From: a virus
Reading direction: 5' to 3' (one strand)
Length of the DNA stretch: 20,484 bases
IMG/VR virus record: IMGVR_UViG_3300032207_000164
Coordinates: 1 to 20,484 of that record
The position numbers and the translations under genes are program-made. Shown in pieces: positions 1-19,938 of this stretch. Within the stretch, counting starts at the first letter, position 1. Each line of letters starts with the position of its first letter. The notes below the pieces were generated by a model. It was not told the origin of the DNA, did not search any database, and saw only the letters and a list, made by a program, of their open reading frames with translations.

Positions 1-3000
1 ATTGAAAATTTCTTGTACAAAGAACGATCCAGCATACTCTGTAGTTGAGAATCCTTCAACAAAGATAATTTCATTGACTTCAAAGTTGTTCTTACTGCTA
101 GAAGCACAATAAACAAGATCAGTGTATGCCAAAGCACCACTAGGAATGACATCCTTATCGAGATTAGATGTCAAGGTAAACTTCTTAACACCAACCAGAC
201 CAGCAAATGTTGCAATCTTGTGGGTAGAATCAAATGTCAGTACGAGACCAACAGCGGCAGCATCAATCGTGTCACCCTTGATATAAACAGAATCTGCGTA
301 GATCTCATCAATTTTAATGATGTAGTCAGTAGGACTAAACTCTTTCCAGGTTGCATATTGTGCAAGAGTGCCACCTGAATATGCAGTGTTATTGATGTCT
401 ACATCAAAAGAACCAGCAATTCTAGTGAATACCCAGTTAACAGAACCGTCAGAGACCGTACCTACGTTATGAGTAGGTGCAGTTGTTCCAGACGTACCAG
501 TGCTAGATGCGGTGTAAATCTTACCATCGTTATAAACTTCATCACCAGTGGTGTATGGGTTGTTGTCACTCCACTGAGGAATTGTTGTTTCTACAGTAAA
601 GACTTGTGCAATCGTATTTTCATCGTTTGCAGTAGACTTCAGTTTCTTCTGGGTATCAAAGTTACCAATGATCTTACCGATTTTTACGGAGTTAGTACCA
701 ACTTCAACGATGGTTCCATATGCGTTAACAACATCTTGACCGCCAATGGTTTGATATTGTTGCAGGATAGAACCCTTAGTAAACGTTGCAGGTTGATTAA
801 ACGTTACTGTCTTAACAGCATCGATGCTGGTGTACAGAGCGTCTCTCAGATAGAACTTGGGAATAACCTTGGTATCCAGAAGCAATTTCTTACCCAACGG
901 AGTAGGAACAGTTGCAGTTCTAGTCTCATAAGTCTGCTCAATAGAAGAGAACGAGAAGAGACCCTCTACGTTATTGGATACAACATCACCGTAGTCAAGG
1001 ATTTGGATACCAGCAGGTCCAAGTTCCCAATCAGCAGCAGTGAGAGTTTGTGACTGATAAGTAAAATCGTTGATTGTAGATGCAACGATAACCGACATAC
1101 CTTGCTCAACAGTGTTGAGTGCATACGTACCAGTCTTAGTTTGCTCTCGATCGAGTTTGAAAGTAAACGCAGATACTTCCTTGTTGGAACCAGTTGCTTG
1201 TCCAGGAGTAAAGGTGTCGTCATACTTAACCACCTGAGAGATTGATACGTTATCAACCCAACCACCAAGAGAGGTTGTAACAACAGGTGAGGCAACACCC
1301 AGCATACGTACCTTCTCAAGGTTTGTATCGACAGTCGTACTTGTGATGCTGATTTCTTCGTTACCAGCAACATATACCTTATAAACGTAGTTACCAACAC
1401 TAGGAGACGACTTGACGAAAGCAACGTGTACGAATCCTTGGTTATTAAACGCTGTCCACATAGAAGTGCTTGTGGAGTAGTACGTATTTGCACCCAACTC
1501 CAATACCAACTTACCAAAGTTGGGACTTGTGGAATCACCATCAACACTCAAAGTTGCATTGGTACCTGTGTTAGGAATAACTTGGAACAGGAGTGGTTTA
1601 GATGCTTGTGCATTGTATTGAGCGGTGCCAATAGCCATCCAAGCTTCGCAAGTCCAATCAGTTGCAATATCAGCAGATCCATAATCAAGTAGGAGCGTAT
1701 TTGCAGCAGCAGTTGTTGATGCAGATTGTGCACCATACTTCCACTTGGAGTTGTCTAAAGTGGGAGCGGTACCCCAAGTGACTGTCAGATCATTGTTATA
1801 AGTCGAATCTGCACTATCGGTAGTCTCAAAATCGAGAATAGCAATTTCATTGGTTTCGATCTTGTTACCAACGATGATAGTGTCACCAGAGTTGTCATTT
1901 GTGATAGATGTTGGCTTAAATCCAATACCCTGATCTTGCTTAACATAAGCAGCAGTCAGTACGTTGTTGGTATTCCAAGAAACCTTGAAAATGACTGCAC
2001 GGTGATCATTGTATGAATACTTGACATATGCACCGACATCAATGTTACCAAAAATATCGAACTTGCAACCAGTCGAGTGAATATCATCAAAAGTTGCACC
2101 AGTTGGAGCAAAAATCTTAGCAACTGAAGGAGTCTTGAGATCATCAGGACTAAACTTCATATAGAGAATACCGACTCTGTTACCACTAGAAACGTTGGTA
2201 GCAGTAGCAGTTACATATCTAGATCCATAATCATCCTGAGTCATCTTAGGATTGGTGAATCTATATGCAGCATTTCCAAATTGACGACTCCACTGAACCT
2301 CAATAGTTGCAGTATCGTAGTACGTTTCACCAATAATGATATTACCAACACCAGCAGGGTCACTTTCACCAACAAATACAGTTCTATCATTACCAATGTA
2401 ATGAAGATCTGTCAGTTTCTCAGTACCAGTTGCAGAACAAATCTTACGCTTCTCCTTAACAGAACCATCCAGATTCAGCAAACCGATCCACATATCATCT
2501 GGACTCGGTGAGTTGGTGTCAGTAGTACCACCAACATAAATCTGACCATCTTCGTCAATAGTGACAGAAGAAATATAGTCACGACGAGTAGCACCAGAAA
2601 TACCAGCAATCTCACGCTGCCACTGAATAACAGCGGTGGGGTTGTTCAGACCATCAAAACCAGAGGTGAACTTAGCAACAACCAAGTCTGGGTTGTGAGT
2701 CAGGTTGGTAGAGTTTGGAATAGTCTCACCAACTACGTAGATATTATGGGGAGTTGAGTTCTCAATGTAGATTCTATTGAAGATACACTTCTTATCACCT
2801 GTGGCAGGTGCCAGAGGCAGCATAGTACGTGTCCAAAGCAGTCTTCCATCACTGTTGAACTTAGCAATCAGACCACCAGAGTCACCACTTACATCATCAG
2901 CGTGACCAACAACATAGAATGTACGGTCATCTGCAATAGCAACATCAACAATCTTACAAACTCTATTTTCACCACTGCTGTTTTCTTTCAGAACTGAGAG

Positions 3001-6000
3001 AGCATATTGTGCTTTCTTAAATCTCTGAGGGTGTGAAACACGAATTTCTGGGGCTTCATTTTCGTCATATCCAGAACCAGAGTTGATGATATTGACTTTC
3101 TTAACAGCACCAGATTCTTCTCTCGTAATAGAGAGTGCAAAGTCCTGACCAGAACCACTAACAACCTGGTAAGTCGGAGGAATATCTTCAGAATAACCAA
3201 GACCTTCTTGAGAAACCGTTACTCGCTCTACACCAGAGACGACTTTAACTCTGTACGTCTTATTGGTTTGATCGATAATAGGAATACTATCAACGATAAT
3301 TTCATCACCTGCTCTCAGATCGTGCTCACCAGTTGTAGTGATTTGACCGTAGGGGCGATCATCAATGATGGATGAGGTGTATCCAGTGATGTCAATACCT
3401 TTAACAGAATTGACCTTTGCAGATGCACCATAACCACCAGTACCTGTATTATCGAAGTACAGTTTGTCATTAACTTTATAGGATCTACCAGCATTCTCAA
3501 CCACGAATCCGCTAATTTGAGCATCCTCAAATTTGGTAGTAGTATCGATCTCAATATCAACCTGTGATCTAGTAGAAACACGAGGGTAGTAATCAAAGAG
3601 TTGCAGCACAGGTTCTTCTGAGATCTGAATCATCGCATCGATTTCAGTCTGTTGAAGAACACCGTCTCTATTAGTATCTTCGATTTCAAAGATGAAAGTA
3701 TCACCGAACTCAGTTACAAGAGTATCGGTATCTGCATTGGGTTGACGATCAATGTCAATATCAACATCTTGATATGGATCACGGAAACGAACAACATCAC
3801 CAGGAATGTTTGTTTGTACTGCATCCTGTGAATAGTTCCACTTATCAGGTGTGGAATACAGTTGAGGTCCACAAACGTACGGGAAGACGGGAAGACCTGC
3901 TTCTGATGCATCAATAGCAACGAAATAAGCGTAAACACCTTCAGGGTATTCTGGTGTCTTACAATATCTACCATTATACTGGTCAAGATCACCTTGCTGG
4001 AAGACGTACTCATAGTCTTCAATAAATGAATCTGCTGCCTCAGCACTTAGCAGTGGACCGTCAGCACGGACAGGGTTAGGGTTGGTGTCTGCATCATACA
4101 GAAGAACTGGTTTGATTCTGTAAGACGATACAACTCTCTTGATACCAGAAGACTGGTCAGCAGCATCAATATAACCATATGGACCATAGATGGGGTTGCC
4201 ATCATATGCCCAACCAATGATTGGAGAGTGTCTAAGACCTGTCTCAAGTTCTCTTAGATTGCCAGTTGCGGGATCACGGAAGACGTTATCACCGAGAACG
4301 TATCTAAGTTGCTTGGGATCTGAGAGGTGAGCATACTCACCACCGTACTGAGTGTTATAACCAGCGAACACATAACCACGGGAGGGATCGAAGAGACCAT
4401 CCAATTCTGTCTGAAGGTTCTTAGTCCACTCAAATACATTTGCGTTGAACACAGCATTCTCACCAATCGCCTCAAGACGAATAGTGGTAGTACCAGTTGC
4501 ATAACCAACACCACGGTTTTCAACGGTAACACCGAGAACTTTACCAGCGTCCTCACCAAATTGACCAATAATTGCTTTACCAACAGCACCATAACCTTCT
4601 CCGTTGATGACAACTCTTGGAGGAGAAGTATATCCGTTACCAGAAGCAATAATAGCGATGGATACGATACGACCATTAATGATGATTGGTTGGGCAACCG
4701 CACCTTCACCAGAGTTTAGTTTGATGTCGGGAGAAGATGTGTAACCAGAACCAGATGCAGTAATAGCAATACTTTGAATAGGACCACGTACTTCTGCTGT
4801 TGCAGTTGCACCCGTACCATTACCACCAGAGATAGACACTGTAGGAGAAGAGGTATATCCCTCACCAGGTGTCTCAACAAGAATCTTACTTACAACACCA
4901 TTAGTAATAACTGCAGTTGCAGTAGCGCCGAAACCGCCGCCACCAACAATAGATACCAGAGGTTGTGTGGTGTATCCTGTACCACCATTGGTAACGTCAA
5001 CAGAGAACAGAGAACCGTTAACTGTTACATCTGCAGTAGCACCAGATCCTTCACCACCTGTGATTTCAATGAGTGGTTTATTTGCAGCATCATAACCAGT
5101 ACCAGCATTAGTAATATCAATACTGGTAACACCACCAAACTTAACTTTAGATTGTGACTTATAAGACCAAGCAGCAACACCGTTAACCCAAGCACCGATA
5201 GGACCAAACTGAATGTCTTCACGACGAGAAACGGTCTCAACCTTTAGGGGGAAACGAGACAGTTTACGCTGGTTACCAGGAAGAAGTGCAGATCCAATAA
5301 ACGGACCAACCTTATAGTTGGGAATACCAGTTGTTGCAATATAAGCGTAATCGCTATTAAAGAATGTGTTCTGTACGTTAGTAGTATAATCTTCAATAGA
5401 AGCATTAATACTTTCTACATCAGACTTACCCTTGTTCAAGTCAACAGACATCAGGATATTACCCTGAGGTGCGTTAGGAGCAGGAGCAGCAATCTGATAT
5501 GAGAAAATAGTGTCGCTAATACGTGAAGTGACAGCGAACGTACCATTAAAGATCGTTGGGTTTGCACCGTAGATAGTTACGGAGTCACCAACAAGCAAAC
5601 CGTGATTATTTGTTGTATATACAGTTGCGGTTTGATTATTCAGACCACCAGGTTGGATTTCGTTAACCTGAATCAGTTTTTTGACGTTATACAGCCAAGA
5701 AGTGACCTTTTCATCTATAGAAGATGATCCAAGAGACGCAACATTCAGTTTATCTGTAGGCAGATAGTATGAACCAGTATCATTCAGGACAGTACCAGTT
5801 GCCTCAGCAATACCGAGAATACGCATCTTGACTTCGGTATCAAGACCACGGTTGATATAAACAAAGATGTCAGATTGAATTTCGGAACCAGCATCCCAAT
5901 CTTCGACAACACCGTTCTTAGAACGAGTACACTCGATGAACTGGTTCAGGGATTTCTCTTTATATTGTACGTACTCTTCATCACCGAGGATGATTAAACC

Positions 6001-8535
6001 ATTTCTTTCTGGCCAACCAATGGTAGAGTCAACAGTAATGATTGAATCTGTTTGGTTAACTGGTTCTACAAGAGTCGTCTTATAAGGAATTGTGAACTTA
6101 CCCTCAAGAGTTTCTTCAGAAATAGAGAGTTCGTAGATAGTTCCTACACCAGTGTTGATCGCAATAACGTTTTCAACCAGGCAAGTTGCATTTTTAACGC
6201 TGGTATCAACAGCATCTGCATATTGGAACAGCTGCGAATCAATAATGTTGCGGGGATCACCGCTAATTAGTTCAACACGAAGAATTGTCTCAACGCTCCA
6301 AGTTGCGTCAGACGGTTTGATGAGTTCGTCTTTGGGATATGATACGTCAACATCTTCAGAGAACAGGATCTTGAAGAGATACTCTGTTGCAATCTTCGTA
6401 CCTTTGGAGAGGTAGAAGTCTTTAATAGTCTTGATGATCTGCGGAGCATTGACTTTCTTGTAGTCAATCGGCGCATTAGGCAAGAATTGATTTACAAAAC
6501 GCTCATATAAGGTACGTGCAAAGAGTGCATCGAGGTTTTCGATGACTGTACCTGCCTCGTGAGAGGATTGGATGCTATCAACTTCTTGTGTGAATACTTG
6601 GTTGCCTCTAATATCGTAGTTAGCAACACCAGATACACCGCGCTTACAATTCTTAAATTGCGAAGGTTTATAGTTTTCGCCGTGAGAATGCAGAGTAAAA
6701 CCAGTAATTTCACCAAAACCAACATCACAAGACGCTGCAGCTGCCTTTGGTTCCGCAATGAAGACTGTAGGGGGTTCAGTTTCGGAATATCCATCACCAA
6801 AACTGGTAATATTGATGTCGGTGATCTCTCCATTGAAGATTGTTGCTACAGCGGTAGCACCAGTGCCGCCAATGGGATTGCCAGACAGATCTTTGCGATT
6901 ATCGACGATATACACAGAAGGAGCGTCTGTATAACCAGATCCGCCCGTCAAAAGTTCAATATCCGTCAATTTACCGCCAGTTACGGAAACATCGAGGATC
7001 TGTGCACCAATGGGATCAATAATTCTGCATCTAGGCGCAGAAGTGTAACCTCTACCGCCAGAAATGATTGTAACTCCGTTAACTCTGCCCTGATCGTCTA
7101 AAGTTGTTACGGCAGAAGCGGAAATTGGGTTTACAGCGTCTTCAGTTGGAGGATCGATGTAAACTGCAGGAGGAGTTGCATAATTAAGTCCTGCTTCGAC
7201 AACAGTGATAGAACCAGGTACGATGGACCCATCAGCGTCAATCTGAGAGTCGGAAATCTTTGCTCCACCAGGATTTACGAATGAAATCGAAGGAATGGAG
7301 TCGTATCCAGAACCAGAAGACTGTACGTTAATTGCAGTGACTTGACCACTAGCATCATCGACAGTTACAGTTGCTTTTGCGGGGATACCAGAGGGATCTG
7401 CAGGTTCATCAAAGATAATGATGGGTGGGTTTGCTGCAGTGTAACCTTGACCACCATCAATCAGGGTAATATCTTTAATACCATTAACAAGTGCCTCAGC
7501 AGTGGCATTTTCGCCAGTAGTGTCTGCAGGAGTTAGGATTGTGGTCTTAGGAGTAAAATTAATGCGGTATCCACTACCACCATTTTTTACAATGATGTCT
7601 TTGAGTTGACCGTTCTCAATTTTACTGATTGCACTAGCTGCTTTACCAAATTCTGGAGCAATTAGTTCTACAGCACGTACTGACAGAACAGTACCAAGAG
7701 AAAGTGCTTGTTTGAGGATAATCTTATCCTCGTAGATGGTATAGTCACTAAATGGTGTTTTTACAACACCATCAACTGCTACCAAGCAAGAAATGGTAGA
7801 CAGGGGAATATAAGGTGCACCACCAAGGGTGAGAGAATATACTTTTTGATCTTGATTATCAACTGCAACAGTTAGGTGGTCCAGTTTACGAACTGGCACA
7901 CTGGTATAACCAATAAGGTACTCAATACTGGTAACAGCAGTAGAGCCCTGAATAATTACGGGAGGAGTTTGGAAACGAATGTTAGATCCATCAAGGAAAT
8001 AGTCTACATCTGGTTCCAGTTGAATTCCATTGACAATAACGCGCAGATACTCGGCAGCAGAGGGCGTTACAGGAGTTCCGAGAAGTTTTAGAGGGAAAGA
8101 CGTACGACTTCCGTCAAACAACAACTTGATACTCTCAAGTTCTTGGATCTTCTTGTTAAATTCGGCAAGATTGACTCCAGGAGTGAAAACAACCTCTGGA
8201 GACTTAGAAATCTCTTCATAGTAGATGATTTCATTGTCAATCTTGATCGTACCGTCTCTTTCGAGAAAATAATCGATGTTTTCTACATCGATATTAATAT
8301 CGGAAGGTCCAACACGGTTCAGAACGATAGATTCCGACCCAATAAAGTTCGGATCATACTCACCCGAACTAATATCGGTGTACGATAAGATATTATTGAG
8401 AATATCGTAAGGTTTTCCAGATTTCTCCTGAGATCTGTAGTATTCTACAATCAGATCAACAAAAGCTTGATCCTCTTCCTTGATAAAGGCAGGAATCTGG
8501 TCCTTTACTCTCTGGGATACCTTAATTGACTTCAT
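1..8535 (-). CDS. Giant modular tail/baseplate structural protein, 3' end outside window
   Basis: The frame stays open for 2845 codons from ATG at 8535 and runs off the left edge, so the C terminus is missing. The start lies 21 bp after the gp6 stop with only a weak GAAG ribosome site. Visible modules in order: an N-terminal region beginning MKSIKVSQRVKDQIPAFIKE, typical of T4-like marine phage structural proteins; a GxGY repeat block (residues about 320-600); a region around 690-730 with the motif YPKDELIKPSD, common in these proteins; a second GxGY block (about 1147-1350); a YHYH domain with GWAYDGNPIYGPYGY near 1443-1457 and a TPEYPEGVYAYF motif further on; SBBP-like propeller repeats (about 1865-2220) with VVGHAD and FNSDGRLLWTR; a LamG/concanavalin-like domain (about 2233-2450); and a chitin-binding-like module (about 2647-2700). 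It occupies the place of T4 gp7 after gp6. I infer a peripheral baseplate or host-adhesion role; homology to gp7 itself is not shown. Confidence 0.88.
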   Translation of the reverse strand, partial: MKSIKVSQRVKDQIPAFIKEEDQAFVDLIVEYYRSQEKSGKPYDILNNILSYTDISSGEYDPNFIGSESIVLNRVGPSDINIDVENIDYFLERDGTIKIDNEIIYYEEISKSPEVVFTPGVNLAEFNKKIQELESIKLLFDGSRTSFPLKLLGTPVTPSAAEYLRVIVNGIQLEPDVDYFLDGSNIRFQTPPVIIQGSTAVTSIEYLIGYTSVPVRKLDHLTVAVDNQDQKVYSLTLGGAPYIPLSTISCLVAVDGVVKTPFSDYTIYEDKIILKQALSLGTVLSVRAVELIAPEFGKAASAISKIENGQLKDIIVKNGGSGYRINFTPKTTILTPADTTGENATAEALVNGIKDITLIDGGQGYTAANPPIIIFDEPADPSGIPAKATVTVDDASGQVTAINVQSSGSGYDSIPSISFVNPGGAKISDSQIDADGSIVPGSITVVEAGLNYATPPAVYIDPPTEDAVNPISASAVTTLDDQGRVNGVTIISGGRGYTSAPRCRIIDPIGAQILDVSVTGGKLTDIELLTGGSGYTDAPSVYIVDNRKDLSGNPIGGTGATAVATIFNGEITDINITSFGDGYSETEPPTVFIAEPKAAAASCDVGFGEITGFTLHSHGENYKPSQFKNCKRGVSGVANYDIRGNQVFTQEVDSIQSSHEAGTVIENLDALFARTLYERFVNQFLPNAPIDYKKVNAPQIIKTIKDFYLSKGTKIATEYLFKILFSEDVDVSYPKDELIKPSDATWSVETILRVELISGDPRNIIDSQLFQYADAVDTSVKNATCLVENVIAINTGVGTIYELSISEETLEGKFTIPYKTTLVEPVNQTDSIITVDSTIGWPERNGLIILGDEEYVQYKEKSLNQFIECTRSKNGVVEDWDAGSEIQSDIFVYINRGLDTEVKMRILGIAEATGTVLNDTGSYYLPTDKLNVASLGSSSIDEKVTSWLYNVKKLIQVNEIQPGGLNNQTATVYTTNNHGLLVGDSVTIYGANPTIFNGTFAVTSRISDTIFSYQIAAPAPNAPQGNILMSVDLNKGKSDVESINASIEDYTTNVQNTFFNSDYAYIATTGIPNYKVGPFIGSALLPGNQRKLSRFPLKVETVSRREDIQFGPIGAWVNGVAAWSYKSQSKVKFGGVTSIDITNAGTGYDAANKPLIEITGGEGSGATADVTVNGSLFSVDVTNGGTGYTTQPLVSIVGGGGFGATATAVITNGVVSKILVETPGEGYTSSPTVSISGGNGTGATATAEVRGPIQSIAITASGSGYTSSPDIKLNSGEGAVAQPIIINGRIVSIAIIASGNGYTSPPRVVINGEGYGAVGKAIIGQFGEDAGKVLGVTVENRGVGYATGTTTIRLEAIGENAVFNANVFEWTKNLQTELDGLFDPSRGYVFAGYNTQYGGEYAHLSDPKQLRYVLGDNVFRDPATGNLRELETGLRHSPIIGWAYDGNPIYGPYGYIDAADQSSGIKRVVSSYRIKPVLLYDADTNPNPVRADGPLLSAEAADSFIEDYEYVFQQGDLDQYNGRYCKTPEYPEGVYAYFVAIDASEAGLPVFPYVCGPQLYSTPDKWNYSQDAVQTNIPGDVVRFRDPYQDVDIDIDRQPNADTDTLVTEFGDTFIFEIEDTNRDGVLQQTEIDAMIQISEEPVLQLFDYYPRVSTRSQVDIEIDTTTKFEDAQISGFVVENAGRSYKVNDKLYFDNTGTGGYGASAKVNSVKGIDITGYTSSIIDDRPYGQITTTGEHDLRAGDEIIVDSIPIIDQTNKTYRVKVVSGVERVTVSQEGLGYSEDIPPTYQVVSGSGQDFALSITREESGAVKKVNIINSGSGYDENEAPEIRVSHPQRFKKAQYALSVLKENSSGENRVCKIVDVAIADDRTFYVVGHADDVSGDSGGLIAKFNSDGRLLWTRTMLPLAPATGDKKCIFNRIYIENSTPHNIYVVGETIPNSTNLTHNPDLVVAKFTSGFDGLNNPTAVIQWQREIAGISGATRRDYISSVTIDEDGQIYVGGTTDTNSPSPDDMWIGLLNLDGSVKEKRKICSATGTEKLTDLHYIGNDRTVFVGESDPAGVGNIIIGETYYDTATIEVQWSRQFGNAAYRFTNPKMTQDDYGSRYVTATATNVSSGNRVGILYMKFSPDDLKTPSVAKIFAPTGATFDDIHSTGCKFDIFGNIDVGAYVKYSYNDHRAVIFKVSWNTNNVLTAAYVKQDQGIGFKPTSITNDNSGDTIIVGNKIETNEIAILDFETTDSADSTYNNDLTVTWGTAPTLDNSKWKYGAQSASTTAAANTLLLDYGSADIATDWTCEAWMAIGTAQYNAQASKPLLFQVIPNTGTNATLSVDGDSTSPNFGKLVLELGANTYYSTSTSMWTAFNNQGFVHVAFVKSSPSVGNYVYKVYVAGNEEISITSTTVDTNLEKVRMLGVASPVVTTSLGGWVDNVSISQVVKYDDTFTPGQATGSNKEVSAFTFKLDREQTKTGTYALNTVEQGMSVIVASTINDFTYQSQTLTAADWELGPAGIQILDYGDVVSNNVEGLFSFSSIEQTYETRTATVPTPLGKKLLLDTKVIPKFYLRDALYTSIDAVKTVTFNQPATFTKGSILQQYQTIGGQDVVNAYGTIVEVGTNSVKIGKIIGNFDTQKKLKSTANDENTIAQVFTVETTIPQWSDNNPYTTGDEVYNDGKIYTASSTGTSGTTAPTHNVGTVSDGSVNWVFTRIAGSFDVDINNTAYSGGTLAQYATWKEFSPTDYIIKIDEIYADSVYIKGDTIDAAAVGLVLTFDSTHKIATFAGLVGVKKFTLTSNLDKDVIPSGALAYTDLVYCASSSKNNFEVNEIIFVEGFSTTEYAGSFFVQEIFN
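4490..5130 (-). repeat. Six GxGY(T) protein repeats inside the giant structural gene
   Basis: Six successive units carry a G-x-G-Y core followed by a short beta-strand-like segment and a Gly/Ala-rich linker such as GATAT. The Gly codons of the cores lie at residues about 1147, 1187, 1226, 1264, 1301 and 1344, giving a period of 37 to 43 residues. The DNA is diverged between units, so these are protein repeats, not recent tandem duplications. Repeats of this type are common in marine phage tail proteins. I infer a beta-rich rod or stalk. Confidence 0.85.
6690..7590 (-). repeat. N-terminal block of about seven GxGY protein repeats in the giant gene
   Basis: About seven units with cores such as GSGYR, GQGYT, GSGYD, GLNY, GRGYT, GSGYT and GDGYS span residues about 320 to 600. 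Each core is followed by a hydrophobic stretch with prolines (for example APSVYIVD or TPPAVYID). Spacing is less regular than in the second block. The units resemble the second block and two units in the 1156-aa protein encoded upstream, which suggests one widely reused fold. Confidence 0.8.
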
Positions 8536-8556: not shown

Positions 8557-10653
8557 TTAGAAGCAAGCGTCGAATTCTGGGAACTCAAACACTGTCGTCG
8601 GATAATCAATGATATTTATCGAGGTTCCGTCGAAGTTAATTGGCGTAAAGTCGAACGGATCGAAGTTGGGAACTACTGTTCCATCAATGGTGTAGTCAAT
8701 CGTGATGACTTGTGGGTTAAAGATCGTAGGATCAACACCTGTACCGATATTTACGTTTCCAGACGCAATCAAAGCGGTAATAGGAATGCGATTTGTGCCA
8801 TCAGGAGTAGTTTGGACGTTAATAGGTCCAAGACAAACTTCACCAGTCTTATAATTGACTGTTCCGACTCCTTTTTTAAGGATAACTTCTTTCTCGTCGA
8901 GTTTCGAGACCATAATCAGTTCGCCACGACCATCATCACGTACATTTACGGGCAAAAGTGCCGATGTATCGTTATCGATGAACGTACTGGTGCTCAAAAC
9001 CGAGTTTGTAGTCAACTGTTGTGACTGAACTGCCAATTCGAGAAGATTTTCGGTGTATCCAGTCGAATAGAACGTACCAGACTTGACAGATGAGAACTTA
9101 GGATCACAAGTTTGACCTCCACCAGCGCCAGTACCAGTATTACCACCAGAAATGTCGCTAGGATTAACAATTTCGTTGTTAAAATCAACACATTGGGTAA
9201 ACGTACTACCAAACGGGAACCCTTCGACGTTCAAACCGAGGGTCATTGAGGTCTGGTTACCAACAATCGCGTTATTTGAGTTATCTACCATCGACTGGAA
9301 GGCAGATGTGTCGATTCTGCCGTTAAATCTGTTGGCAGAACCCTGAGTATTGTATTGATCGATAGCAGACAACACGGTTGTCGCCATTTCATTGTTAGAA
9401 AGGTTGGTTCTAGTGCCATCGAAGAAGACATACGTCTTCGGGCGGATGTATAGAGTAGTAGGATCGATGATGACTGGTTCGATTGCCGCCATCGAATACT
9501 TCAGAAGGTCATTCTTGATGCGCTTCTTAGTTGTTTCGTTCAGTGCTGCACCACTCTTGGTCTTGACAGCAACAAATACCTTGCCATAGATCGGAGGAGC
9601 AAGTCTTTCACCACCATAAGCAGTGACGGACTTTGCCATCGGATATACCATCTTGGTGATATACTCATAGTCCGACTCAGTAACCGCTCTATTCTGCGCT
9701 GAGAATGCCCTAGGAGCGTTATATTTGATGCTAACGATGTCTTCCCCTGTCTCACCGTCTTGAGAGGCGTCTACGGTCGTTACAGAGATGTTAGAGGAGG
9801 GTATGATACGACCAGTGTTATCAATAGCACGACCGATGAAAGTAAACTTCTTGCATCCGTTAGCAATGGGACCATCTGTACGTACATACTTGAATCTGAT
9901 GATCTCACCAGCAATCAATTCTCTACCGATGATGCCATCACCAAAGACGACTTTGTATCTCAGGTCATCAGTCTCTTCGAGAAAATAACCACGAGTAGTA
10001 CCATCAACCCCAACAATATCTGTAATGCGATTATATGTGTCAATTTCTTCTGACTGAGCGTTGGGAGAAATACTAACGTACAGAAGGTCAGTATCCACAT
10101 TGTCAACGGGAATATCATAAGCACGCTTCTTGACATCCTCAACGGTGTACTTGTACGTTAACAAGTTTCCTTGATAAACGACAGTTTTATTAAATTCTGC
10201 AATGCCAGTAGTCTGATCTACAGCAACCGTCAGATCTTGAGGCAGAGTGAACAGATAAGACTCACCATCCACGGAAGATACGAAAGTATCACCCTGTGGC
10301 AAGGTTACTGTTGAGGGGAAAGTTGTGCTGCTACCAATATATTGCGTCTGTACAGCGAAATGCAAACACGCTTTTGACGCTTTGATGGATCTTGGTGTAT
10401 AATTAAGTTGCTTCGCAATCTTAACAACGTTGTCTCTAATCGTTGCAGATTCAAGGAACGCCTCATTCATCGCCATATTAGCGTTGAACGCAGCATAGTA
10501 AGTGTTATATGCCAGTACGTCTAACAGATACGACGCAGCAGAACCCTCAAAATCGTAATCAGTAAACTCAGTTCTGGTTCTCAGATACGATCTGATAGAT
10601 TCTTTGATCTCTGTAAAGTCCAGAGATGTTAAATTTGAAGGGATTGCTGCCAT
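8557..10653 (-). CDS. 6: Baseplate wedge protein gp6
   Basis: This 698-aa protein is a T4 gp6-type baseplate wedge subunit. In T4, gp6 dimers join neighbouring wedges into the continuous inner ring of the baseplate around the hub. The N terminus (SLDFTEIKESIRSYLRTRTEFTD, followed by DFEGSAASYLLDVLAYNTYY and AMNEAFLESATIRDNVVK) is the most recognisable signature of cyanophage and T4-like gp6. Length is close to T4 gp6 (about 660 aa). A low-complexity GGNTGTGAGGG stretch sits near residue 510. The ATG lies 3 bp after the gp25 stop and the order gp25-gp6 is the standard one, so the two genes are very likely cotranscribed. The stop is TAA. Confidence 0.95.
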   Translation of the reverse strand: MAAIPSNLTSLDFTEIKESIRSYLRTRTEFTDYDFEGSAASYLLDVLAYNTYYAAFNANMAMNEAFLESATIRDNVVKIAKQLNYTPRSIKASKACLHFAVQTQYIGSSTTFPSTVTLPQGDTFVSSVDGESYLFTLPQDLTVAVDQTTGIAEFNKTVVYQGNLLTYKYTVEDVKKRAYDIPVDNVDTDLLYVSISPNAQSEEIDTYNRITDIVGVDGTTRGYFLEETDDLRYKVVFGDGIIGRELIAGEIIRFKYVRTDGPIANGCKKFTFIGRAIDNTGRIIPSSNISVTTVDASQDGETGEDIVSIKYNAPRAFSAQNRAVTESDYEYITKMVYPMAKSVTAYGGERLAPPIYGKVFVAVKTKSGAALNETTKKRIKNDLLKYSMAAIEPVIIDPTTLYIRPKTYVFFDGTRTNLSNNEMATTVLSAIDQYNTQGSANRFNGRIDTSAFQSMVDNSNNAIVGNQTSMTLGLNVEGFPFGSTFTQCVDFNNEIVNPSDISGGNTGTGAGGGQTCDPKFSSVKSGTFYSTGYTENLLELAVQSQQLTTNSVLSTSTFIDNDTSALLPVNVRDDGRGELIMVSKLDEKEVILKKGVGTVNYKTGEVCLGPINVQTTPDGTNRIPITALIASGNVNIGTGVDPTIFNPQVITIDYTIDGTVVPNFDPFDFTPINFDGTSINIIDYPTTVFEFPEFDACF
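8613..8620 (-). promoter_or_regulatory. T4-type late promoter octamer GATAAATA ahead of the giant gene
   Basis: On the minus strand the sequence reads CCTCGATAAATATC, matching the T4 late consensus TATAAATA at seven of eight positions. It lies inside the end of gp6, 78 bp before the giant gene start. The same octamer occurs only twice more in the window, both times before structural genes. Late transcription in T4-like phages uses the gp55 sigma factor with the gp45 clamp; that this site is used is inferred. Confidence 0.6.
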
Positions 10654-10656
10654 CTG

Positions 10657-11067
10657 TTAGGTTCTCTCTAGGAGGAAGTCAACTGTTTGTACTAAAGTCT
10701 CACCAACAATAGTGTAGTCTACCTCTATATCTAGGGTATTATCATCATCTCCAGGAGTGATACGTACATCATTCAGTACGACTCTTGGTTCAAATCTTGC
10801 TACTACGTTCTTGATCTCTTCTTTCAGATCTTCTCCCAAAAAGACATCATAGGGTTCAAATAGCATTTCTCTCAAACGAGACCCTGTATTGGGTTGAAAG
10901 GGTCTCTCGTACATACCCGTAGAGACTAAGTTACGGATAGACTGTTTAATAGCATTCTCATTTTTTACAACAGAAAAATCTTCAGTATTGGGATTTGCTT
11001 TGAATCCAATACTGAAGTCCTTAAATGCTCTGCTGAGCGTTCTATCTGCTCTAAATTTGTATGCCAT
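10657..11067 (-). CDS. 25: Baseplate wedge protein gp25
   Basis: This 136-aa protein belongs to the gp25/GPW family, the baseplate component that docks the first sheath ring and is shared by phage tails and type VI secretion (TssE). The family's EPR motif is present at residues 93-95 (RFEPRV), after the characteristic region NLVSTGMYERPFQPNTGSR at about residues 47-64. Length is close to T4 gp25 (132 aa). The start ATG overlaps the stop of the upstream 62-aa gene by one base (TAATG) and no clear Shine-Dalgarno is visible, so translation is probably coupled. A GATAAATA late promoter lies 103 bp upstream. Confidence 0.96.
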   Translation of the reverse strand: MAYKFRADRTLSRAFKDFSIGFKANPNTEDFSVVKNENAIKQSIRNLVSTGMYERPFQPNTGSRLREMLFEPYDVFLGEDLKEEIKNVVARFEPRVVLNDVRITPGDDDNTLDIEVDYTIVGETLVQTVDFLLERT

Positions 11068-11496: not shown

Positions 11497-12030
11497 TTAT
11501 GCAGAGAGGACAGTAGGAGAACCATAAGCAACCACTGACTTGCAGGGCCAAGAGAGGAATGGTTTACCAATACCAAGAGGGTCTAGCATTCTACCAATAG
11601 GTCTCTTCAGAGCGTACACTGTAAGCGTTGTTGCTTCACACATACGGAAGTGACCAACACCACCCATATCTTCCACTGTGAGCATACCGCAAGTAGTGGG
11701 TGTTGGGATAATACACATTGCCTTACCACAAGGGCACAGGTAATTAATGATGTTTGCCGTGGTTGATGTATGTGGTGTAAACACGTCACCAAACAACATA
11801 ATGGGCAAACCGTTGACTAGCACAGTTGCCCTAAGAGGATTGACCGCTTCAAGTGGAATTAGCGGTTGAGGTGCCCACCAACAAGTAAGGTCCTTAACAA
11901 CGATGCCAAAGGGGATAGGAGGCGTGCCACAGGGTTGTTGATTGTGGATAGATGCGGGTACGGGTAGTCCGTGTCCAGAACACGGAAGACCGTTAAGAGA
12001 CGCAACTGGTTTTAGAATTCCTAATGCCAT
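11497..12030 (-). CDS. PAAR-type tail spike tip protein
   Basis: This 177-aa protein has the look of a phage PAAR protein, the zinc-stabilised cone that sharpens the central tail spike (T4 gp5.4 position). Supporting features are short beta-strand segments with VNPLRATVLVNGLPIMLFGD (about residues 63-82), similar to the family's repeated strand-NG-strand-GD pattern, and a C-terminal AYGSPTVLSA. It is rich in potential metal ligands: C17, H20, H29, C34, C50, H87, C99, C101, C106, C114, H127, C131 and C163. It is longer than minimal PAAR proteins of about 100 residues. The start overlaps the stop of the 1156-aa structural gene as TGATG, which suggests that the two are made together and meet at the tail tip. 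Confidence 0.82.
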   Translation of the reverse strand: MALGILKPVASLNGLPCSGHGLPVPASIHNQQPCGTPPIPFGIVVKDLTCWWAPQPLIPLEAVNPLRATVLVNGLPIMLFGDVFTPHTSTTANIINYLCPCGKAMCIIPTPTTCGMLTVEDMGGVGHFRMCEATTLTVYALKRPIGRMLDPLGIGKPFLSWPCKSVVAYGSPTVLSA

Positions 12031-15000
12031 CAGTCAAACGTAATATCGCACTCATCAAAGTACGGGTTACCATAGTTATTTAACGTTTCATCCAGCAAAC
12101 GCGCAGATCCTGTTGAGTAGTTTCTCCAAAGCATACTACCCTCGTACGGTCCCATCTCAATACGGTTGTCGGAATTGATACGCTTGGGGTCAATAGCGAT
12201 AGCAGCGTGCTGTACCTCATTCAACGCAAGGCATCCTTGGAATGGTGGATTGGAGCAAAGGTCGTTTGCGGTAATTGGACTACCATCACATTCATATCCA
12301 GAGTTTACAGTCAACACGCCATCTGTAACAAAGTTGTGCCAGTTGTCATTACTGAACTTACCACCGCTACAACTGTTCAATGTGACACTGTTATACGTAC
12401 CCCAACCAACTCCACCTGTAGAATTACCTGTGTTTGTCTGTGATGTATTGCCCTCCTCATCCGTGGTCTCGGTGTACTCATATGAGGTCCAGGTAAACGG
12501 GGAGAACGTACTGTAGTTGCCTGCTCCGATCCAAGTTTCTAACTGATCAAGCTCTGTCATACCCTGATTAAGACCATAGTCAAAGGTATTCTCGTCACCA
12601 CCAAGAGGAACGAACGCATATTGACCGCTAGAAGTCTCATAGCAGCGCCCTTTAGCGTCACCATTAGTGCAAGGATGCGTTTTTTCATCTCCAGAACCAC
12701 CAGATTTAGGTACTTTGCGCGGTCTAGTGAGTTGTGGACGCCCCAAAGACTTCAACCAGTTCATAAAACGGGTGTTTACAGCTTCACCTGCGCCACTTAC
12801 ATCACCGTCTACCTGAATACTTACCTTCACTTTCGCAAGATCTAGTTTAGAAGCGCAGTATTTGTACGGCATCCACCCATAAAGCAGTTCATTACCCTCC
12901 GAATCGAAGGATTGATACGGACAGGGGATGTCAAAAAAGCGTCGAACACCATAAAGATTGCTCTGAGCAACCTCAATACACCCTCCAGGGAAGACTCCTG
13001 CCATACCATTAGACAGTTTTTCCTCGATCTGGTCCGCGTACGGTCTAGAACGTGAAAAGAAATCACCAAGCATACCGTTGTTGGCGTTAAAGTCGCCATT
13101 CAAACCGCGTAAATTGCTAAAGAGTGCCTGTTCATCGTAGTATTGCGCCCAATCTGACCACCCTTTACCAGAATCTGGTTGGAAACATAGACCAGGAACA
13201 ATCTTATCGCAGAACTTTTGCTTCTCTTCTGCATTGACATCGCCCATTTTAATGTATCCACGCGGATATGCAGTGGTCTTCTCACTGTTAAACAACTGCG
13301 AGTTCTCTAGAATGATGTCTCTATCCTGTTGAATCGCCGCATTTGCAGTCGCATCATTGTTTCCGAACTGACTCAGAGAGCGTTGGATCTCCACTTCATA
13401 GGGATTCATACCCTCAGCAACGTACTTATCCTTCCTAATACCCTGCTCACGGTCTACCACAACCACCTTGGGGCGGGTACCAGGAGAGTATCCACGACCT
13501 TTATTGGTAATAATTACATCAACGATGGATCCATTATCATCCAGAACCGCTTTGAACTCTGCTGCTTCGAGTGTTCCGTTAACATCAGACTCAGTAACGA
13601 AGGATTTGTTGCTAATTCTGGATGCAGACCTACGTGCTTTCTTGTCAAAGCGTTTGAAATCCGTCTCATCCTCTACATCTATCTGTACTTTTGTCGAAAA
13701 ATCATCCTCAAAGAACTCATCTACGTTAGATCCCGAGTCAGCGAATCCCTGTTCGCGCAATACCTCAGGGAATTCACAGGAAAGTTGCGGATTTACGTAG
13801 TCTTTTCCCGCATTAATGATCTTAACGCTTTGAACCCTACCCTTTTTATCAATTTTTGCTTGTAATACCGCTTCATCTATCGTACGTTGCGGGATCAAAG
13901 CGTTCTTATCGATCTCTACACGCATATAGGAGACCTGTTTAGGGAACTCAAACACTCCCCAGAACGCTCCTTTGTTAGCAATTCCGTATCCTGCCAGTAC
14001 AGTGATGCCACCATTGTTGGCAGAAGTGAATTGTTGACCATATGTGAACGTACTTCCTTGCCCTTCTTGTTGCAAAGAAGACAATTCCATATATCCACAG
14101 TTCATCTCATCACCAAAATAGCGGCAAGCAGTGATCATCCAACCATTAATACGCTCACCAACCTTAAAGAAACCACTGCTAGTGGTGTATCTAAAGAAGA
14201 TACGGTGGTCATCTGTACCTGCTGTCCAGAAAGATTCGTTTGCACCTGGTGTTAGATCAGGAGCATCAACAAACAATGTGGTCTTTTTAGTTACCCAAGC
14301 ATCCTGACGGATCACATAGTTATAGTTGTGGTACGTCAGAGTGGGTTGTGGTGGTGGACTACCACTTCTGTACGAAGTAGGAAGACACGGTGCATTGGTC
14401 TCAAAAAAGTTGATACCATAGATCGGTCCATTCCAGGGGTACGTTGTGTCGTACAGGTAGAATACAAACTGACCTTCAAAGGCATCGTGAAAGTTGATTG
14501 AGCGGGGCACTGCTGCCTTCACAGCGCCGTTCTTTCCATAAAACCACTCAAAGTATGCATCAGTGTCTAATAGGTCAACACTATTGCCCCAACCACGAGA
14601 AGATGTAGCAGGTACACCATCTTTATCCTTTAGGTAATCTATAAGGGTATATGGTGTACCGTACGCTCTTCTATTACCATAGCTATCATTAGGTGATACC
14701 CAGTCATACCAACTTGATCTATCAACTAGACCAGTGCACTGTGGACCACCAATCTCCTCATACCGTGCAACCGCCCTAGGACCTGGTGTAAGAGTTACGT
14801 ACCCAATGATACCTTGATACCGATACTCTTCACCTCTTGGGTCATTACAATCTGGTACACCAGATACACCAGTCTCCAGGTTGTTTTCGACTACAGGATT
14901 GACCGTATAGAAGTCGTTAGGACCCCTTTTACTGTCTCCAGGGTGTCTATAGTGGTAAAGGGGTCTTATCGCCTCTCCAGTGACCAGCAAACCGCTGCTG

Positions 15001-15500
15001 TTGGCAGCTGATTCACTGGTCCAGATATACCCCAGATTCTCTCCACCACCATTACCAGTCTCTAGTTTGTGATTCTCCTCACTACTATTGTACACAGAGC
15101 GAAGACGTACTGTACCACTTACTGAATCTCTCAGTGTAGTGAAGTACCTTGCGCCTCTCTGACGAGGTTCTCTATTGTATGACCTATGCTTATGTTCGTC
15201 TTCCTTGACTTCCTTGTTCTTACTATACAGGTGGTTCCTCAACTTACCTGAATAGAACCTAAAAATAGTTCTTCTTTCACTGGCGCAGAATGCTACGCAA
15301 GTCTCTTGTCTCTCGCCAATATAAAACACCTCATCCTTTCCAAACTTATACCCACCAGGACCATTGTCCTCGTACGTTATCTGGTAACCGTTTGGAACGT
15401 TAGCAGCATCTGCTTCTGCACCCGACCAAGTTTTATTATAATCTTCGGAGTCAACGGGGTTCTCATAAGAGCGCCCCGTCTCCTGTACGTAAATTGCCAC
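12030..15500 (-). CDS. 1156-aa tail-tip structural protein with DUF5648-like and GxGY modules
   Basis: The gene starts with GTG at 15500, overlapping the upstream stop as TAGTG. The N-terminal 240 residues contain segments resembling the DUF5648/beta-trefoil-like lectin family: TIFRFYSGKLRNHLYS (near 80-95), RPLYHYRHPGD (near 180-190) followed by DFYTV, and QGIIGYV (near 228-234). Two GxGY-like units lie at about 568 (GKDYVNPQ) and 670 (GRGYSPGTRP), similar to those in the giant protein. The second half is Gly, Asn and Ser rich, with many Cys. The C terminus contains QHAAIAIDPKRINS and ends in an acidic tail. Coupling to the PAAR gene suggests a hub or tail-tip protein, perhaps glycan binding. 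No lysozyme motif was recognised, so I do not call it gp5. Confidence 0.85.
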   Translation of the reverse strand: MAIYVQETGRSYENPVDSEDYNKTWSGAEADAANVPNGYQITYEDNGPGGYKFGKDEVFYIGERQETCVAFCASERRTIFRFYSGKLRNHLYSKNKEVKEDEHKHRSYNREPRQRGARYFTTLRDSVSGTVRLRSVYNSSEENHKLETGNGGGENLGYIWTSESAANSSGLLVTGEAIRPLYHYRHPGDSKRGPNDFYTVNPVVENNLETGVSGVPDCNDPRGEEYRYQGIIGYVTLTPGPRAVARYEEIGGPQCTGLVDRSSWYDWVSPNDSYGNRRAYGTPYTLIDYLKDKDGVPATSSRGWGNSVDLLDTDAYFEWFYGKNGAVKAAVPRSINFHDAFEGQFVFYLYDTTYPWNGPIYGINFFETNAPCLPTSYRSGSPPPQPTLTYHNYNYVIRQDAWVTKKTTLFVDAPDLTPGANESFWTAGTDDHRIFFRYTTSSGFFKVGERINGWMITACRYFGDEMNCGYMELSSLQQEGQGSTFTYGQQFTSANNGGITVLAGYGIANKGAFWGVFEFPKQVSYMRVEIDKNALIPQRTIDEAVLQAKIDKKGRVQSVKIINAGKDYVNPQLSCEFPEVLREQGFADSGSNVDEFFEDDFSTKVQIDVEDETDFKRFDKKARRSASRISNKSFVTESDVNGTLEAAEFKAVLDDNGSIVDVIITNKGRGYSPGTRPKVVVVDREQGIRKDKYVAEGMNPYEVEIQRSLSQFGNNDATANAAIQQDRDIILENSQLFNSEKTTAYPRGYIKMGDVNAEEKQKFCDKIVPGLCFQPDSGKGWSDWAQYYDEQALFSNLRGLNGDFNANNGMLGDFFSRSRPYADQIEEKLSNGMAGVFPGGCIEVAQSNLYGVRRFFDIPCPYQSFDSEGNELLYGWMPYKYCASKLDLAKVKVSIQVDGDVSGAGEAVNTRFMNWLKSLGRPQLTRPRKVPKSGGSGDEKTHPCTNGDAKGRCYETSSGQYAFVPLGGDENTFDYGLNQGMTELDQLETWIGAGNYSTFSPFTWTSYEYTETTDEEGNTSQTNTGNSTGGVGWGTYNSVTLNSCSGGKFSNDNWHNFVTDGVLTVNSGYECDGSPITANDLCSNPPFQGCLALNEVQHAAIAIDPKRINSDNRIEMGPYEGSMLWRNYSTGSARLLDETLNNYGNPYFDECDITFD

Positions 15501-19466: not shown

Positions 19467-19497
19467 TTGTGTTAGTGAAGAAAGTGAACTTAGGTTA

Positions 19498-19845
19498 TCA
19501 GGCGAAGATGTAACCGTTGTCAAATTCTTCAGTCACAAACACTTTTTCAGTGCCATTTTGTCCAACAAACTTACGAACAAACCACTTGAAATTCTTCTGG
19601 AAAACACCTTCGCCAGCAATGCAAAATTCATCACAAAGTGCATTAAGGCGAGATTTTGTGGTGTTGGATTGCCAACCGCCATCAAAAATGGTCATCGAAG
19701 TGTCATCAATCTCAGCGATTTTGTTGCCGTGGAGACGTACAACAGAGACACCAGTCTCAGCGTCAAAGTGAACAGAAGTGTTGGCAGATTGCCAGTCGAT
19801 GTTCTTCTGAACAGCGGCACACATTTGAGATTCGATCTTACGCAT
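19498..19845 (-). CDS. Conserved-looking 115-aa phage protein of unknown function
   Basis: The protein contains VVRLHGNKIAEIDD (about residues 35-48), IFDGGWQSNTTKSRLNAL (about 53-70) and FQKNFKWFVRKF. This pattern of a short beta domain followed by a W-x-x-x-TT-x-SR-x-N-A-L segment is one I recall from small proteins of many cyanophages and other marine phages, without a known function. It is soluble, with no signal peptide. A TATAAT lies about 65 bp upstream. The stop precedes the 43-aa gene by 31 bp. Confidence 0.82.
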   Translation of the reverse strand: MRKIESQMCAAVQKNIDWQSANTSVHFDAETGVSVVRLHGNKIAEIDDTSMTIFDGGWQSNTTKSRLNALCDEFCIAGEGVFQKNFKWFVRKFVGQNGTEKVFVTEEFDNGYIFA

Positions 19846-19909
19846 TTTGTGGTTGAAAGTGAAGTGAATTGGTGTCGGTTGGTTGGTTTCCCTCCCTCCC
19901 GATGTCTTT

Positions 19910-19915
19910 ATTATA
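19910..19915 (-). promoter_or_regulatory. Possible promoter -10 TATAAT before the 115-aa gene
   Basis: The minus strand reads GTGCCCTATAATAAAGAC, with a perfect -10 box. A CTTACA, four of six matches to TTGACA, lies 16 bp upstream. The start would lie about 60 bp before the 115-aa ATG, leaving a G-rich then A/C-rich leader (GGGAGGGAGGG then CCAACCAACC). Moderate evidence. Confidence 0.5.
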
Positions 19916-19938
19916 GGGCACCAGGAGCGCCTGTAAGG

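Follow-up and report, generated by a model that had tools for sequence, protein, structure and literature searches.

Giant virion proteins are already known from the Kyanoviridae, with S-WAM1 AOV61558, S-SZBM1_208, P-RSM6 CPXG_00128 and P-TIM40 PTIM40_99 as examples. S-SZBM1_208, a protein of 724.20 kDa and 6619 aa, was detected by LC-MS of virions with 71 peptides and 13.5% coverage, and the same paper reports long tail fibres to be absent from S-SZBM1, S-WAM1, P-RSM6 and P-TIM40 (PMC9146016). According to a second paper, T4 gp7 is absent from cyanomyophages, VrlC stands in its place, and YHYH and concanavalin-type domains are listed in the structural operon with a suggested role in receptor binding (PMC7029224). 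The general idea of the first-pass annotation of the present DNA, i.e. a giant tail protein with potentially receptor-binding modules, is therefore already in print (PMC7029224).

The window, by which we mean the whole stretch of 20,484 bases analysed here and which is the entire virus record, carries a giant-gene frame on its minus strand (8535..1) that begins with an ATG at 8535 and runs for 2845 codons, stop-free to base 1, while the plus-strand reading of 1..8535 is full of stops. The C terminus of the protein is missing because the record ends inside the gene; a long frame lacking its C terminus had been claimed without mention of the strand, and the claim held. That the giant gene is an artefact or a plus-strand feature was ruled out by the intact minus-strand frame and by conservation of the family. 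A tblastn search of 50,697 phage records detected the window protein in 481, and in 276 of these the match spans 80% or more of the protein length; the names of the 481 include 375 Synechococcus phages, 61 Cyanophage and 24 Prochlorococcus phages. Residues 1-2844 matched PHROG 701 at profile positions 1-2826 of 6136 (E 0), and an NCBIfam search of the window protein returned nothing above cut-off. In the IMG/VR relatives L018 and L030 the complete gene encodes 6481 aa (this protein is termed REF below) at 98% identity across the window part, so the window holds about 44% of the giant protein, namely its N-terminal part. The complete giant genes of 15 phages encode 5422 to 8573 residues, the range reaching 8862 aa with the composite G003 (L025 + L122), and the frame is single and uninterrupted in all 15 as translated, in REF and in G003. 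Judged by these sequence comparisons, the window frame is the N-terminal 44% of an already known cyanomyovirus baseplate protein (PHROG 701), of which it is a new family member. Its nearest named relatives are S-SZBM1, S-WAM1, P-RSM6 and P-TIM40. It shares the gene order of the Kyanoviridae giants and is collinear with them through the window part, at 48-49% identity to S-WAM1, S-SZBM1 and P-RSM6 and about 41-42% to other Kyanoviridae groups; it differs from the named giants in forming a sequence lineage of its own and in being cut at residue 2845.

The giant gene (1..8535, minus strand, phrog_701, running beyond the record end) is directly preceded by a gp6-type baseplate wedge gene (8557..10653, minus, phrog_219) and a gp25-type baseplate wedge subunit (10657..11067, minus, phrog_261), the names gp6 and gp25 both being taken from synteny in the relatives. 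The order gp25-gp6-giant was found in the window and in 15 other phages, with the gp9/gp10 side lying beyond the window end. Elsewhere in the window, a 177-aa frame (11497-12030, minus) matches the PAAR-motif family phrog_281, and a second large gene of 1156 aa (12030-15500, minus) matches phrog_22792, of unknown function, and weakly the baseplate wedge family phrog_719; genes of about 880-1430 aa, compared by position alone, lie upstream of gp25 in three relatives. Megablast to named phages gave matches solely at 19490-19920 and 10409-10710 (84% to S-CAM22).

Record labels for the giant gene vary between gp7, baseplate wedge initiator, virion structural protein and putative fiber. The giant protein, about six times as long as T4 gp7, resembles it in following gp6 and in a stretch at residues 678-814 (6094..6504, minus), to which a phiM12 wedge protein, the record note of which cites the gp7 family (PHA02579), matched at E 8e-9. 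The same stretch matched the baseplate wedge family phrog_17744 at residues 678-806 (E 1.1e-16) and is common to baseplate wedge proteins outside cyanophages, while PF23786 stayed under cut-off in the window protein (E 0.0069) and a direct profile search of residues 800-1600 against solved structures gave no match. Position after gp6 and this wedge-anchor-like stretch are what support the gp7 label; it is doubtful because the literature places gp7 outside the phage group of the giant protein and reports VrlC in its stead (PMC7029224).

Analysis of the window part by profile searches and structure prediction revealed a series of modules, most conserved at residues about 500-1700 (100-residue bins, 15 named phages). 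GSGY-type repeats, which are common to many phage structural proteins, occupy residues about 1131-1350 (4486..5145, minus; boundaries by eye; stretches of phrog_460, phrog_5342 and phrog_438) and are followed by a YHYH domain at residues 1370-1543 (3907..4428, minus), where PF14240 matched at E 2.9e-29 with 102.9 bits against a curated cut-off of 25, confirming the YHYH motif that had been read directly from the sequence. A beta-propeller is predicted at residues 1837-2231 (1843..3027, minus) from an SBBP repeat at residues 1981-2007 (PF06739, E 1.3e-5, 25.4 bits against a cut-off of 20.5) and from an AlphaFold2 model of residues 1810-2845, which matched the propeller of CylK (PDB 7ron) with Z 33.0, rmsd 3.0, 355 aligned residues and 19% identity; DUF5122 remained under cut-off in the window protein (E 0.026). 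The SBBP-like propeller of the first-pass annotation was thus borne out by a match above cut-off and by a CylK-like predicted fold, a likeness drawn from the fold alone, CylK, unlike a baseplate protein, being an enzyme. Residues 2232-2449 (1189..1842, minus) were modelled as an all-beta domain, mostly at pLDDT about 90. The window protein itself gave no LamG-type Pfam match, and Laminin_G_2 was found in 4 and Laminin_G_3 in 1 of 24 alignment members; model and relatives together agree with the LamG-type domain that had been placed from about residue 2233. The LamG-like domain appears to sit inserted within the propeller, since the CylK match (model range 35..729) continues past residue 2450, and residues 2451-2461 (1153..1185, minus) form what the model ranges suggest to be the strand closing the propeller. 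Finally, the module with YTTGDEVYNDGKIYTA, which had been called chitin-binding-like, proved real, but its assignment changed: CBM_5_12 was below threshold in the window protein (E 0.49, 10.9 bits against a cut-off of 26.2; E<=0.1 in 11 of 24 alignment members, best 6.2e-4), and the module was matched better by 7eea, a receptor-binding domain from the tailspike of a short-tailed cyanophage (E 3.4e-6, and 1e-9 by family profile). This tailspike-like module lies at residues 2650-2707 (415..588, minus) and resembles part of that domain, the shared part being one 57-residue module and the rest of the tailspike being unmatched.

Taken with the position of the gene, these modules lead us to regard the protein as probably a giant T4-like cyanophage baseplate protein that is docked in the wedge beside gp6 and putatively acts as an accessory adhesin through its LamG-like and tailspike-like modules. 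Residues about 500-1700 would dock the giant protein in the baseplate wedge next to gp6, the propeller would present the LamG-like domain outward, and the LamG-like and tailspike-like modules would touch cyanobacterial surface glycans. The missing C-terminal half would bear a second lectin and phycobiliprotein-like domains, as expected from the 98% identity of the N-terminal part to REF; in L018 the second lectin is a Laminin_G_3 match at residues about 4361-4500 (E 6.6e-15). With module functions assigned by resemblance, the role as accessory adhesin is likely though putative; counting against it, contacts between proteins are also made through LamG and propeller folds.

To see how the modules diverge, we compared REF with L020, L022, L025, S-SZBM1, S-WAM1, P-TIM40 and P-RSM6, in that order. 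Identities were 86, 86, 82, 62, 62, 57 and 63% for residues 641-900; 91, 88, 83, 66, 66, 64 and 64% for the YHYH domain; 80, 75, 67, 36, 36, 34 and 37% for the propeller; 67, 64, 58, 29, 25, 28 and 29% for the LamG-like module; 69, 76, 76, 40, 43, 52 and 47% for the tailspike-like module; and 58, 59, 50, 45, 42, 31 and 41% for the second, downstream lectin. Among the modules of the window part, the LamG-like one thus showed the lowest conservation in all seven comparisons. No module swaps were seen in the window part in 100-residue bins (15 named phages; eight relatives against REF), and identity along it falls gradually and in register. The prediction of faster exchange in the LamG-like and later modules than in the N terminus therefore held in part: the LamG-like module does change faster (25-67%, against 57-86% for residues 641-900), but the modules diverge in register without exchange.

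Such smooth divergence, following phylogeny and contrasting with strongly conserved residues 500-1700, is what would be expected if the role of the lectin-type folds were purely architectural, that is, if they were spacers or inter-subunit contacts of the baseplate, exposed and weakly constrained and so fast to diverge. We consider this a real but secondary alternative to the accessory adhesin, as one chain combines two separate domains of lectin type, at residues 2232-2449 and at about 4361-4500, with a module resembling a receptor-binding domain of a tailspike.

Less probable is that phages trade the LamG-like and later modules among themselves and that these modules decide the choice of cyanobacterial host. 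Low conservation of the LamG-like stretch would fit this explanation, as would the reported lack of long tail fibres in the four nearest named relatives (PMC9146016). Divergence, however, proceeded in register without swaps and showed no link to isolation host: the LamG-like modules of P-RSM6 and P-TIM40, both isolated on NATL2A, share 32% identity, while those of S-WAM1 and P-RSM6, the host genera of which differ, share 43%, the same as S-WAM1 and S-SZBM1, both from Synechococcus. In these sequences LamG divergence follows phage relatedness. Furthermore, the giant proteins of P-RSM4 (Prochlorococcus) and S-TIM4 (Synechococcus) agree at all but 9 of 6603 residues, the exceptions lying at 1245 and then at 4292 and beyond, so that their lectins are identical though the host genera differ. 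Residues 4292-6078, in the half that bears the phycobiliprotein-like copies, account for eight of the nine differences. The giant gene is also identical among the chemostat isolates S-RIM8 A.HR1, A.HR3 and A.HR5, in the names of which HR presumably stands for host range; as a control this identity is weak because the 49 kb downstream differ at no more than 3 positions. In a host-adaptation experiment with S-TIM4, the YadA-domain protein ORF108 was highlighted, and the giant ORF101 is unnamed in the main text, the full set of 20 mutated genes being listed in a figure (PMC6224464). Isolation host being a mere proxy for host range, these observations only weaken the idea, and on sequence grounds a host-range role of the lectin-type modules is possible. 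Of the suggested host-surface specificity near the baseplate, a virion protein of the baseplate region with lectin-type modules stands, while the divergence of these modules takes no account of isolation host.

Cleavage of the giant chain after synthesis, with parts going to different virion structures and the lectins perhaps off the baseplate, is compatible with the 13.5% peptide coverage of S-SZBM1_208, which leaves one intact chain unproven, but is very unlikely given that all 71 peptides were assigned to one protein (PMC9146016) and that the frame is uninterrupted in 15 of 15 complete giant genes, in REF and in G003.

The accessory adhesin reading concerns the window part; the data on the C-terminal half all come from proteins of relatives, outside the window. 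The C-terminal 3636 residues of the L018 protein matched the Phycobilisome family PF00502 at E 6.2e-10 and 39.7 bits (cut-off 22.2), the match spanning profile positions 33-84 of 155 only; with a 370-aa L018 segment alone the score was 21.9 bits, and 10 of 12 members reached E<=0.1. The tandem phycobiliprotein-like domains occupy L018 residues about 4536-4905 (locus 23606-24715, outside the window). A search of the PDB with the single L018 sequence gave 36 matches at E<=1 (best 0.014), 35 of which were phycobiliproteins or fluorescent proteins listed alongside, the odd one being a glycosyl transferase. With a 12-sequence profile there were 127 matches at E<=1, the best 60 all of the phycobiliprotein type (top E 3e-6), and in the best two the phage cysteine was aligned with the cysteine of a CARD/CLRD motif. 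An AlphaFold2 model of two tandem copies (32 sequences, pLDDT 74.5) was compared with known structures by VIA-align, and all 50 matches listed were phycobiliproteins or derived from them (best Z 17.7; 7lj0_B with Z 17.1, rmsd 2.1 and an alignment over 140 of its 145 residues); the Foldseek listing held such proteins as well, though at weak E values of 0.05-0.2. For helical models, Z values to about 14 may be unspecific, and those of 16-18 lie above this level but not by much; the sequence profile, the CxRD motif and the Z values therefore carry the case for the fold jointly.

Phycobiliproteins frequently attach their bilin at a CxRD motif (PMC10151467). In the 32-sequence alignment the C, R and D of this motif are present in 32, 28 and 32 sequences in copy 1 and in 30, 29 and 30 in copy 2, with a variable X in both, and distant clades carry C-K-x-D at this place. 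That the C-terminal halves of the relatives bear domains with a predicted phycobiliprotein fold and a conserved CxRD is thus well supported by profiles and models. These domains resemble phycobiliproteins (PF00502) in predicted fold and motif and differ from them in being parts of a giant virion protein. Iterated HMM searches of 16 giant proteins revealed 84 copies (fragments counted), 3 to 10 per protein, with C..D in 66 and C.RD in 27, the arginine being absent mainly outside the clade of the window. Since the arginine is missing from many copies and C..D from 18 of 84, not all copies would be ordinary bilin sites. The giant protein of G003 (8862 aa) shares 72% identity with REF in the first 5172 residues and is longer by 2,525 residues at 5166-7689, after REF residue about 5170, the sole large change seen. 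The HMM does not recognise these as further phycobiliprotein-like copies, giving 7 copies in G003 and 7 in REF; C..D motifs recur in the listed part of the insert at spacings of about 60-86 residues.

The phycobiliprotein-like domain occurs in the giant proteins of cyanophages, and certain annotated tail fibres carry it too. A general marine-phage domain, as similar motifs in SAR11 phages might suggest, was rejected, since tblastn with three queries returned cyanophages in 288 of 288 records, in 358 of 358 and, at E up to 10, in 325 of 326. The domain profile had no match in HTVC008M, T4, phiM12, P-SSM2, S-SM2 and S-SSM7. A simple link to pebS was likewise rejected: P-SSM2 and S-SSM7 possess pebS and ho1 yet lack the domain, and several domain-positive phages are without pebS in the table of the same paper (PMC3037559). 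CpeT (PF06206), by contrast with pebS, accompanies the domain; it is a phycobilin lyase family (PMC10665884). In 23 records (16 plus 7 more, with T4 and phiM12 excluded from this comparison), domain and CpeT occurred together in 18, the domain alone in S-SKS1, CpeT alone in none, and neither in P-SSM2, S-SM2, S-SSM7 and HTVC008M. Agreement thus extended to 22 of the 23 records, CpeT being present in 18 of the 19 with the domain and in none of the 4 lacking it (one-sided Fisher test, 5.6e-4, or 2.6e-3 when HTVC008M is left out, over related records and with phylogeny not controlled); as the records are related, few independent events may underlie the association. Among the 23, ACG-2014d counted as positive only by the threshold of Pfam and with adjacent pieces included (best E 0.0037, none at 0.001), and Syn1, S-SM2 and S-SSM7 had been picked as CpeT-less in a 2010 table, Syn1 turning out to have both. 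The CpeT match of S-MbCM100 has an internal TAA in one piece (record 13426-13641). A lyase could load a bilin of the host, so the missing link to pebS leaves bilin loading possible. On this basis one may speculate, at rather long odds, that the C-terminal array was captured from host phycobiliproteins and is putatively loaded by CpeT at the CxRD cysteine, which would give a pigmented baseplate.

For the phage group, the domain map assigns both a lectin-type and a tailspike-like module to a baseplate protein, and it is useful since the nearest relatives of the window phage are reported without long tail fibres (PMC9146016). In the open literature as far as it was available, subscription journals and preprints lying outside this scope, we found no description of a phycobiliprotein-like domain in the giant cyanophage protein; such domains seem to be unreported, although automatic Pfam annotation may already flag them. 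What the phycobilin genes of cyanophages (pebS, pcyA) do has been termed a mystery, because Prochlorococcus is without intact phycobilisomes (PMC3037559, PMC2984593). The conserved CxRD cysteine makes the virion protein a concrete candidate bilin acceptor, which can be checked on purified virions. If bilin is indeed loaded, the giant virion protein would be the acceptor for the bilin-pathway genes of the phage, and a pigmented baseplate could serve light sensing, quenching or baseplate stability; the phycobiliprotein-like array would then matter more than the domain map of the window part.
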